Source: Flavobacteriales bacterium (GTDB taxonomy: Bacteria; Bacteroidota; Bacteroidia; Flavobacteriales_F; PHOS-HE28). Taken from it: a stretch of 64,000 nt of DNA. A program made the position numbers and the translations under genes. Positions 24,932 through 27,608 of this stretch are shown one piece after another; within the stretch, counting starts at the first letter, position 1; each line of letters begins with the position of its first letter. The DNA lies in assembly GCA_020852835.1 (NCBI GenBank), contig JADZAC010000045.1, positions 62,001-126,000 on the forward strand, in the 5' to 3' direction. The notes below the pieces were generated by a model. That model saw only the letters and a program-made list of their open reading frames with translations, did not search any database and was not told the DNA's origin.

Positions 24932-25531
24932 CTATTTCTTCTTCTTGGGGATAAGGTACATCATCATCCGCTTGCCCTCCAGTTTGGGCATGCTCTCCAC
25001 CACGCCGATGTCCTCCAGCTCCTGGGCGAACTTGAGCAGCAGGATCTCTCCGCGCTCCTTGAAGACGATGGTGCGGCCCTTGAAGAACACGAAGGCCTTC
25101 ACCTTGTGGCCTTCCTCCAGGAAGCGGCGGGCGTGCTTGAGCTTGAAGTTGAGGTCATGCTCATCCGTGTTGGGGCCGAAGCGGATCTCCTTCATTTCCA
25201 CCACGGCCTGCTTGGCTTTGATCTCCTTCTGCTTCTTCTTGAGGTCGTAGAGGAACTTCTTGTAATCGATGATCCGGCACACGGGCGGATCGGCCGACGG
25301 GCTGATCTCCACCAGGTCCAGTTGCAGGTCTTGCGCCATGCGCAAGGCTTGTTCAAACGGATAGATGCCCTGCTCAATGTCTTCACCCACCACGCGTACC
25401 TGGGGCACGCCGTAGATACGGTCGTTGATGCGGTGGGGATCTTCGCGTACCACGCGCCCGCGCGGGCGTGGCGGGCCTGAGGGGCGGGGCGGGCGTGGGC
25501 CCATGGGGCGGAAGGGAGGTCGTGTTGCCAA
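24932..25531 (-). CDS. infC: Translation initiation factor IF-3 (TTG start)
   Basis: IF-3 keeps the ribosomal subunits apart and checks start codon choice. The 199-residue protein has a Pro/Arg-rich N-terminal tail, then [17 protein letters not shown], and the C-terminal domain with [16 protein letters not shown]. The only plausible initiator after the thrS stop is TTG at 25531: no ATG or GTG suits, and the next Met is within the proline-rich tail at residue 10. A non-canonical infC start codon is a known autoregulatory device (AUU in E. coli). The gene follows thrS after 30 bases. Confidence 0.93.
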
Positions 25532-25561: not shown

Positions 25562-27505
25562 TCAGTGCCCGGCAAGGCCCGCTTGGATGCGTTCCTGTAC
25601 CAAGGCGTGGAATTGTTCAGGGGTCATGGCGCCCAGATCGCCTTGCCCGTGCTCGCGCACAGAGAGCGTGCCCGCCCCGGCTTCCTTTTCGCCAATAATG
25701 AGCATGAACGGCGTTTTGGCCATTTCCGCGTCGCGGATCTTGCGACCGATCTTTTCGTTCCGCTCGTCGATGATGGCGCGAATATCGCGATCTTTCAGCA
25801 ATTCAGCCGCCTGCTTGGCCGCCTCATTGAATTTTTCGCTGATGGGCAGGATCACCGCCTGCTCCGGCGCCAACCACAGGGGGAACCTGCCGGCGGTGTG
25901 CTCGATCAACACGGCGGTGAACCGCTCCAGGGAGCCGAACGGTGCGCGGTGGATCATCACCGGGCGGTGCCGCTGGTTGTCCGCGCCCACGTATTCGAGC
26001 TCAAAGCGCTCCGGAAGGTTGTAGTCCACCTGGATGGTGCCCAACTGCCATTTGCGGCCCAGGGCATCCTTCACCATGAAGTCCAGCTTGGGGCCGTAGA
26101 ACGCGGCCTCGCCGTATTCCACCACGGCCTTCATGCCTTTCTCGGCCACGGCTTCGGTGATGGCCCGTTCGGCTTTCTCCCAGTTTTCCTCGCTCCCGAT
26201 GTACTTGCTGCGGTCTTCCTTGTCCCGCAGGCTGATCTGCACCTCATACTCCTTGAAGTCCAGCGCGCGGAACACCAGCAGCACCAGGTCGATCACCTTT
26301 TTGAACTCCTCCTTCACCTGGTCGGGCATGCAGAAGAGGTGTGCATCGTCCTGCGTGAAGCCGCGCACCCGGGTAAGGCCGTGCAGCTCGCCACTTTGCT
26401 CGTAGCGGTACACGGTGCCGAACTCGGCCAGGCGCAAGGGCAGGTCCTTGTAGCTGCGCGGCCGGCTGGCGAAGATCTCGCAGTGGTGCGGGCAGTTCAT
26501 GGGCTTGAGCATGAACATCTCGCCTTCCTGCGGGGTTTCGATGGGCTGGAAGCTGTCTTTACCGTATTTCTCCCAGTGGCCGCTGGTTTCGTAAAGGGCC
26601 TTGCCACCGATGTGGGGTGTGGCCACTTGCACGTAGCCGGCCTTTTCCTGCGCGGTTTTCAGGAAGTTCACCAACCGCTCGCGCAGTGCGGTGCCCTTGG
26701 GCAGCCACAGCGGCAGCCCGGCGCCCACGCGCTCGCTGAAGGTGAACAGGTCCAACTCCTTGCCCAGTTTGCGGTGGTCTCGCTTCTTGGCTTCCTCCAG
26801 CAGGACCAGGTATTCGTCCAGTTCTTTCTGCTTGGGGAAGGTGATGGCGTAGAGGCGCGTGAGCTGTTTGCGCTTTTCATCGCCGCGCCAGTAGGCCCCG
26901 GCCACGCTCATCACCTTGATGGCCTTGATGGGGCTCGTGTCCGGCAGGTGCGGCCCGCGGCACAGGTCGGTGAAGTTGCCCTGGGTGTAGAAGCTGATGC
27001 TGCCGTCCTCCAGCCCGTCGATCAGTTCCAGCTTGTACTCGTCGCCTTTCCCGGTGAAGTACTTGATCGCCTCGGCCTTGGATACTTCGCGGCGGGCAAA
27101 GGATTCCTTCTTGGCGGCGAGCTCCTTCATCTTGGCCTCGATGGCCGCGAAGTCGCCGTCGCCGATCACCTTGTCGCCGAGGTCGATGTCGTAGTAGAAG
27201 CCGTTCTCGATGGGCGGCCCGATGCCGAACTTGGTGCCGGGGTATAGCGCCTCAATGGCCTCGGCCATCAGGTGGGCGCTGCTGTGCCACAGTGTGGCCT
27301 TCCCTTCGGGGTCGTTCCAGGTGAGCAGTTGCAGGGTGCAGTCGCCGGGCAGGGGGCGGTTGGCATCGCGCACCTCGCCGTTCACTTTTGCGCTAAGCAC
27401 GTTGCGGGCCAGGCCTTCGCTGATGCTGCGGGCCACGTCCATGGGCGTGGCGCCTGGCTCATATTCCCGAATGCTTCCGTCGGGCAGGGTAACGTTGATC
27501 TTCAT
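25562..27505 (-). CDS. thrS: Threonine-tRNA ligase
   Basis: Charges tRNA-Thr. The 647-residue class II synthetase has the N-terminal TGS domain ([15 protein letters not shown]), the editing domain with [17 protein letters not shown], the catalytic core with NCPHHCEIF (zinc cysteine and histidine region) and [11 protein letters not shown], and the C-terminal anticodon-binding domain. Domain order and length are standard. It heads the operon to rplT. The leader is very short and mostly made of a hairpin described separately. Confidence 0.97.
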
Positions 27506-27516
27506 GCAATGCGTTC

Positions 27517-27536
27517 ACCACCTTACGAACGGTGGT
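27517..27536 (-). promoter_or_regulatory. thrS leader hairpin with a tRNA-Thr anticodon-like loop
   Basis: On the minus strand ACCACC, loop GTTCGTAA and GGTGGT form a perfect 6-bp stem ending 11 bases before the thrS ATG. The last seven loop bases, TTCGTAA, read as U33, anticodon CGU and A37-A38 of tRNA-Thr(CGU). In E. coli, ThrRS represses its own mRNA by binding such a mimic. Function here is inferred. Confidence 0.6.
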
Positions 27537-27551
27537 TCTTTTGAAGGGCCG

Positions 27552-27559
27552 CAAAGGTA
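27552..27559 (-). promoter_or_regulatory. -7 element of the thrS promoter
   Basis: TACCTTTG on the minus strand matches TAnnTTTG exactly. It places the start of transcription about 40 bases before the thrS ATG. Confidence 0.7.
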
Positions 27560-27573
27560 CTGGTCCATAGGTG

Positions 27574-27608
27574 AAAAAAAGAAGGTCCCGTATTGCCACG
27601 GGACCTTC
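27574..27608 (-). terminator. Terminator of the outer-membrane protein gene
   Basis: GAAGGTCCCGT (27581-27591) and ACGGGACCTTC (27598-27608) form a perfect 11-bp stem with a 6-base loop, followed on the minus strand by seven T bases. It lies about 20 bases after the stop at 27629. Confidence 0.93.

Follow-up and report, generated by a model that had tools for sequence, protein, structure and literature searches.

We analysed a 64,000-nucleotide stretch of a Flavobacteriales genome (the window), which encodes on its reverse strand a threonyl-tRNA synthetase (ThrRS), the product of thrS. The protein carries the Pfam domains TGS, tRNA_SAD, tRNA-synt_2b (the class II core) and HGTP_anticodon (E 5.8e-22), and it aligns with E. 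coli ThrRS at 43% identity along 640 positions. The residues N575, R583, E600 and R609 (E. coli numbering), which we take to be the anticodon contacts of the E. coli enzyme, are all kept in this alignment. The solved relatives of the window protein include 1kog, presumably the complex of ThrRS with its operator. The next gene downstream, infC, encodes initiation factor IF3 and is probably in the same transcript, as inferred from the gap of only 30 bases behind thrS. It appears to start at a codon other than AUG: TTG in the window and in close relatives, GTG elsewhere (15 loci). No ATG lies between the in-frame stop and the TTG or GTG codon in the rows that reach such a stop (loci L083-L105). 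This is reminiscent of E. coli infC, which has a rare AUU start. The features of the locus are the following.

24932..25531, reverse strand: infC (IF3), next gene downstream of thrS, TTG start (open reading frame; domain)
25562..27505, reverse strand: thrS, threonyl-tRNA synthetase, 647 amino acids (open reading frame with ATG at 27505; Pfam domains)
27517..27536, reverse strand: anticodon-arm-like hairpin, 6-bp stem and 8-nt loop (sequence, fold, conservation, covariation)
27531-27536, reverse strand: 5' stem, ACCACC (sequence)
27523-27530, reverse strand: loop of 8 nt, GTTCGTAA (RNA GUUCGUAA) (sequence)
27517-27522, reverse strand: 3' stem, GGTGGT (RNA GGUGGU) (sequence)
27523..27529, reverse strand: loop bases UUCGUAA, equal to the tRNA-Thr(CGU) anticodon loop (the genome's own tRNA gene)
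27525..27527, reverse strand: CGU, anticodon-like triplet at positions 34-36 (G35 and U36 invariant in 41/41 genus leaders)
27552..27559, reverse strand: -7 promoter element, TACCTTTG (sequence; -7 consensus)
27581..27608, reverse strand: terminator-like hairpin of the upstream gene, 12-bp stem and T tract (pattern match)

A tRNA-like hairpin in the thrS leader

The initial annotation had proposed that the whole thrS leader is about 40 bases long and consists of a -7 element followed by a hairpin, ACCACC/GGTGGT, that ends 11 bases before the start codon. Both parts hold. The -7 element, judged by its consensus, places the predicted mRNA start at about 27546 and gives a predicted leader of about 41 nt. 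The hairpin occupies about -31 to -12 relative to the ATG, with 11 nt between the two. We found no Shine-Dalgarno sequence in GAACGCATTGC before the thrS ATG and, by eye, none conserved in relatives; Bacteroidota rarely use such sequences.

The annotation had further claimed that seven loop bases match the anticodon loop of tRNA-Thr(CGU). We scanned the window genome for tRNA genes (24 of 30 tRNA loci, from 38 tRNA matches) and recovered tRNA-Thr genes with the anticodons TGT, GGT and CGT. The anticodon arm of the last reads GCTCA-TTCGTAA-TGAGC, and its seven loop bases are identical to the last seven of the leader loop, while the stems are unrelated. The whole loop has 8 nt, as an additional G precedes these seven bases.

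This hairpin is the only structure in the predicted fold of the 41-nt leader, at -10.5 kcal/mol (z -1.95; equalled by 11 of 200 shuffles), and no second anticodon-arm-like domain is present in it. For a 92-nt stretch that includes coding sequence the fold has a z of +0.67. Folding energy alone is unremarkable, and we did not use it as evidence. The case that the hairpin stands above chance is drawn from its conservation in the genus, from covariation and from the choice of loop bases. Searches against Rfam at the gathering threshold returned only two tRNAs and no T-box in the window, and no family for seven other loci that carry the element.

Conservation and covariation within the genus

We sampled 45 genomes of the genus, which is the sole genus of its family and order in the sample; 44 of them have a ThrRS match. 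From these we recovered 41 thrS starts (30 loci and 11 further stretches). The pentamer UYGUA occurs exactly once in the last 60 nt of all 41 leaders (48 nt for L109). By our rule, it lies in a loop of 7 or 8 nt with at least four closing pairs in 36 of the 41. The remaining five (L106, L108, L109, L117 and L123) score no stem around a loop of 7 or 8 nt and form 9-nt loops by eye, L106 with an additional bulge and L109 and L123 with a mismatch. Stem and loop, whose retention in relatives had been named beforehand as a test, are thus kept in all 41 leaders (36 by rule, 5 by eye). Loops of 8 nt predominate (34 of 41, the window included), followed by 9 nt in the five leaders just named and 7 nt in two. 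The leader of Bacteroidetes bacterium SZAS LIN-79 (L003, JAFEAI010000198.1) is the same as that of L087.

Within the loop, U33, G35, U36 and A37 are invariant in the genus leaders. Position 34 varies: 33 leaders have the triplet CGU and 8 have UGU, both of them threonine anticodons.

A pattern TAnnTT[T/C]G precedes the hairpin in 40 of the 41 leaders, the contig of L109 being too short to tell. In the 36 leaders scored by rule, 7-15 nt separate the end of this -7 pattern from the stem, and another 10-15 nt separate the stem from the start codon. An mRNA start downstream of the hairpin had been named as a refuting condition; given the position of the -7 pattern, the hairpin should be part of the transcript, which speaks indirectly against such a start.

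Paired stem changes in relatives had also been predicted, and they were found. For alignment A1 we used 31 distinct rows of the 41, leaving out the five 9-nt loops, the two 7-nt loops and three duplicates; rows were selected by loop length and not further by pairing. The covariation score is 0.454, compared with 0.164 for shuffled alignments (0 of 500 reach the observed value) and 0.011-0.137 with the partner strand shifted along. Cells in which both sides have changed number 29, against 9.4 after shuffling (0/500), and two stem positions have 11 and 13 double changes among the 31 leaders. Pairing cells amount to 85.5% as against 71.5% in the shuffles (0/500), with the outermost of the six pairs mostly open. 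Two of the five measures are weak: four pairs show a double change (2.7 expected; 89 of 500 shuffles reach this), and there are 13 further pair types (10.2 expected; 33 of 500 shuffles reach this). Relatedness may explain part of the remaining covariation signal.

One reading of such a hairpin is a plain stem that hides the ribosome-binding sequence, and in the window alone this has some appeal, as the 3' arm AAGGUGGUGA is one mismatch from the Shine-Dalgarno sequence AAGGAGGUGA. The same arm reads GGCGG, GGCAG, GGUCC or GGCCC in relatives. The resemblance is not conserved, whereas the loop is, and a hiding stem needs no fixed loop. We rejected Shine-Dalgarno hiding on this ground and consider it highly improbable.

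Specificity of the loop and its link to thrS

For every triplet, we asked how many leaders form a hairpin within their last 80 nt that has the loop pattern U-N-x-y-R. In the genus, 28 of 39 leaders score with a threonine-type triplet (CGU 23, UGU 5), whereas the 60 non-NGU triplets combined give 1. Among 144 other Bacteroidota leaders, UGU is found in 16 and CGU in 3, against 9 for the 60 non-NGU triplets. With wider criteria the counts are 28/39 in the genus versus 7 in all, and 43/163 in the others versus 16 in all; the 163 include 20 leaders from families already known to show the element, of which 15 score. Such hairpins are found in 8 of 1275 and 18 of 4906 flank windows of 109 nt (0.4-0.6%; stored strand only).

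A second control compared hairpins with GU at positions 35-36 to those with each of the 15 other dinucleotides, under the widest criteria. GU was found in 35 of 40 distinct genus leaders (others: mean 1.07, maximum 5), in 26 of 71 leaders of a survey of the class Bacteroidia (mean 1.13, maximum 6), in 9 of 77 leaders of named Bacteroidota (mean 1.27, maximum 3) and in 1 of 13 further class leaders (mean 0.27, maximum 2). Three of the nine named matches (L022, L054 and L065) may be due to chance. Leaders from other classes of the phylum are at background level, with GU in 1 of 18 (mean 0.67, maximum 3). These 18 come from 26 loci, the rest not being usable, and their start codons are weakly anchored. 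Because of this background level, and with E. coli as the only sample outside the phylum, nothing here indicates that the element and the E. coli operator descend from one ancestor, and the origin of the element is perhaps separate.

The same data bear on a reading at the DNA level, in which the hairpin would be the inverted repeat of a transcription factor beside the promoter, or a chance palindrome. The element does lie just downstream of the -7 element, and comparable hairpins occur in flanks at the frequency given above. Yet the arms vary around a fixed centre, the reverse of what a dyad bound by a protein would show; the stem changes are compensatory; and the loop bases follow threonine anticodons and not other dinucleotides. 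We regard this reading as scarcely credible.

We built a covariance model of the genus hairpin from the 31 leaders and ran it over 44 whole genomes. The 24 best matches of the model are thrS leaders. The model found the thrS leader in 32 of the 44 genomes; it is the top match in 30 of these, and in G024 and G010 another match outranks it. In 12 genomes no thrS leader was reported at E 5. In the window genome thrS scores 29.1 bits and the next match 20.5. As these leaders went into the model, the independent information lies only in how few equal matches occur elsewhere. A regulon beyond thrS was considered and rejected: 8 of the 48 listed non-thrS matches were examined (one in the window genome, seven in related genomes), and as all eight lie inside open frames, on either strand, they were taken as chance. 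By eye, four matches (L230, L232, L233 and L234) apparently represent a single homologous site that lies opposite an open frame of about 170 amino acids, itself conserved; this is probably a coding coincidence.

An anticodon-like loop might be read by proteins other than ThrRS. Enzymes of the t6A37 modification, for example, recognize the anticodon loop of ANN-decoding tRNAs; they need U36-A37 and would not require G35. If such a reader were the ligand, the invariance of U36 and A37 in the genus, and the retention of A37 in most other cases, would be expected. Equal constancy of G35 would not be, nor would the change of A37 to U or G in f19, L245 of f38, L025 and L030, where G35-U36 stay. In addition, the strongest genus matches lie at thrS, and the 8 of 48 others that were examined fall in open frames. 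All this makes a t6A reader very unlikely.

Leaders of two other synthetase genes served as controls. None of 26 hisS leaders of the genus has a hairpin with an NGU loop, and none of the 26 has one with a His anticodon; these are 26 of 28 loci, L310 and L323 having been dropped since they have no open frame of the needed length. In many of the hisS loci (L297-L324) the start lies directly behind a -7 pattern, which suggests a near-leaderless mRNA, unlike thrS. At 24 pheS loci we found no hairpin of either kind; the starts there are poorly placed and the sequence is mostly coding, and these loci serve as a genic control only.

Layouts in other Bacteroidia and a proposed mechanism

Members of the class survey were picked by family and ThrRS score, not by leader, and were drawn from the best-scoring part of a list limited in length. 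Of 72 loci 71 could be used (L180 has no tblastn anchor), as could 13 of the 14 further class loci. Besides the family of the window, 33 families of the class are represented by 1-17 leaders each; 11 have at least one match and 22 have none. No hairpin was scored in 45 of the 71 surveyed Bacteroidia leaders or in 68 of the 77 named ones. The element is therefore absent from many Bacteroidia and not essential for thrS control in general.

Layouts in several other lineages differ from that of the window. In family f38, all 17 leaders have an arm AAUCAU-AGUUGUAG-AUGAUU, or close variants, whose 3' strand contains the AUG. Upstream lies a second arm, scored by the strict rule in 15 leaders and present in L131 and L243 with the loops ACACGUAA and GGCGUAG. 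Position 34 of this upstream arm is U, C, G or A, and G35-U36 are constant; position 37 varies in L245 and others. The triplet is AGU in five f38 leaders; the tRNA scan, which covered 24 tRNA loci of the window genome and not the f38 genomes, contains no tRNA-Thr with an AGU anticodon. In families f35 and f6 the arm is CCUGC-GUUGUAU-GCAGG and variants, with a stem of 5 bp and a loop of 7 nt, just as in a true anticodon arm. L009 (Bacteroidota bacterium) has two tandem arms, the second with the loop UUCGUUU. By eye, L031 and L053 of the Saprospiraceae resemble the tandem arms of L009, CGU is lost from the first arm of L046, the third Saprospiraceae record, and L006/L249, L018 and L190 have looser versions. 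Threonine-loop hairpins with longer arms (up to 9 bp) were seen in L173, L178, L184, L187 and L195; they end 14-31 nt before the start codons used, which are less certain.

The upstream stem of f38 covaries in alignment A2, which comprises 14 of the 17 leaders (L150, L185 and L245 left out) chosen with pairing in view, at 0.291 versus 0.141 (0/500). Alignments A4 and A5 covary as well, but the rows of A2, A4 and A5 were chosen for having the hairpin, and pairing in them is thus partly circular. Alignment A3, in which 7- and 8-nt loops were mixed in one register, was set aside. We regard the genus set and the dinucleotide controls as less biased tests.

The comparison across relatives supports the reading given in the initial annotation, a thrS operator that mimics tRNA-Thr, and we think it very likely that the hairpin is a ThrRS operator for autogenous repression of the E. 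coli kind. Binding, repression and competition by tRNA are proposed here by analogy. Free ThrRS would bind the leader arm through the threonine-anticodon loop. Since the hairpin lies inside the region that the 30S subunit must cover, bound ThrRS would block initiation and so lower its own synthesis and probably that of infC. tRNA-Thr would compete for ThrRS and relieve the repression. Where there is one arm, as in the window, a single subunit of the dimeric enzyme may be engaged, or the dimer may bind two mRNAs; where there are two, as in f38 and L009, each subunit may take one. In f38 the start codon itself would be part of the arm.

ThrRS could also bind the hairpin and alter mRNA stability, by protecting or exposing the 5' end, or early transcription, and leave 30S access unaffected. 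The hairpin begins about 10 nt from the predicted 5' end, a usual place for stability elements, and such a role is compatible with all the conservation data. We consider it unlikely, as the AUG is included in the f38 arm in 17 of 17 leaders, which points to initiation, and the E. coli case, as described, acts on 30S binding (PMC3858243, PMC9976931).

Several known systems invite comparison with the proposed ThrRS operator. T-box elements also lie in leaders of synthetase genes and respond to tRNA status. In a T-box a codon-like specifier pairs with the tRNA, and regulation is mostly by attenuation. Here, the loop carries an anticodon, and the Rfam search of the window gave no T-box.

The closest parallel is the thrS operator of E. 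coli, presented as the established bacterial case of a synthetase that represses its own translation by tRNA mimicry (PMC11088916, PMC9976931). Its domains 2 and 4 are described as anticodon-arm mimics that are bound by ThrRS, which blocks the 30S subunit (PMC11088916, PMC9976931, PMC3858243), and exchange of the triplet for that of Met is reported to have moved control to MetRS (PMC11088916, PMC9976931). An E. coli thrS arm folds as GUGAUCU-UUCGUGU-GGGUCAC. Both systems have, in the 5' leader of thrS, a hairpin loop with a threonine anticodon (..UUCGUAA.. in the window), and both have a ThrRS with a conserved anticodon-binding domain. They differ in that the window has one arm in about 41 nt and E. 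coli a multi-domain operator with two arms, which agrees with the earlier claim that the window element is the smaller; in that no Shine-Dalgarno domain stands between arm and AUG in the window; and in that most of the genus has an 8-nt loop, compared with the 7 nt of tRNA. Even if its mode of action is that of the E. coli operator, the window element is not a strict member of that class, having no second arm and no Shine-Dalgarno domain.

In yeast, HisRS (own mRNA), ThrRS (RPC10) and AspRS (own mRNA) are described as binding anticodon-arm mimics, and a tRNA-mimicry case has been proposed or seen for E. coli HisRS (PMC6542539, PMC9956033). The yeast elements are alike in being mRNA structures that resemble an anticodon stem-loop and are bound by a synthetase; they are unlike in being eukaryotic and not placed against a bacterial start codon.

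In the open-access literature, most subscription papers lying outside the search, we found no description of a Bacteroidota thrS operator or of tRNA mimicry for a synthetase in this phylum. A study of ribosomal leaders with Flavobacteria in its sample mentions neither threonyl nor tRNA synthetase in its main text (PMC7247131).

Taking the class as a whole, we lean towards the view that Bacteroidia have widespread minimal ThrRS operators whose origin is separate from that of E. coli. A single arm of 5-6 bp with a threonine-anticodon loop would suffice, and it would have been remodelled to give tandem arms and also an AUG-containing arm, where the synthetase would clamp the start codon directly. 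G35-U36 would be read, rather than the tRNA copied. If this is true, the logic of E. coli thrS recurs in a distant phylum in a form of about 20 nt. The range of natural layouts, with one arm, with two or with an AUG-containing arm, would separate what the mechanism needs from the particulars of E. coli. The small size makes the element directly testable, and it would give a compact ThrRS-responsive switch.

Some flavobacterial leaders without the hairpin show a different feature. In L067, L072, L075, L292 and L293, and loosely in L071 and L077, we noticed by eye, a few tens of bases ahead of the thrS promoter, AT-rich sequence that is in part palindromic, for example TATATATTGTATGTA. It is possibly a transcription-factor site that replaces control at the RNA level.
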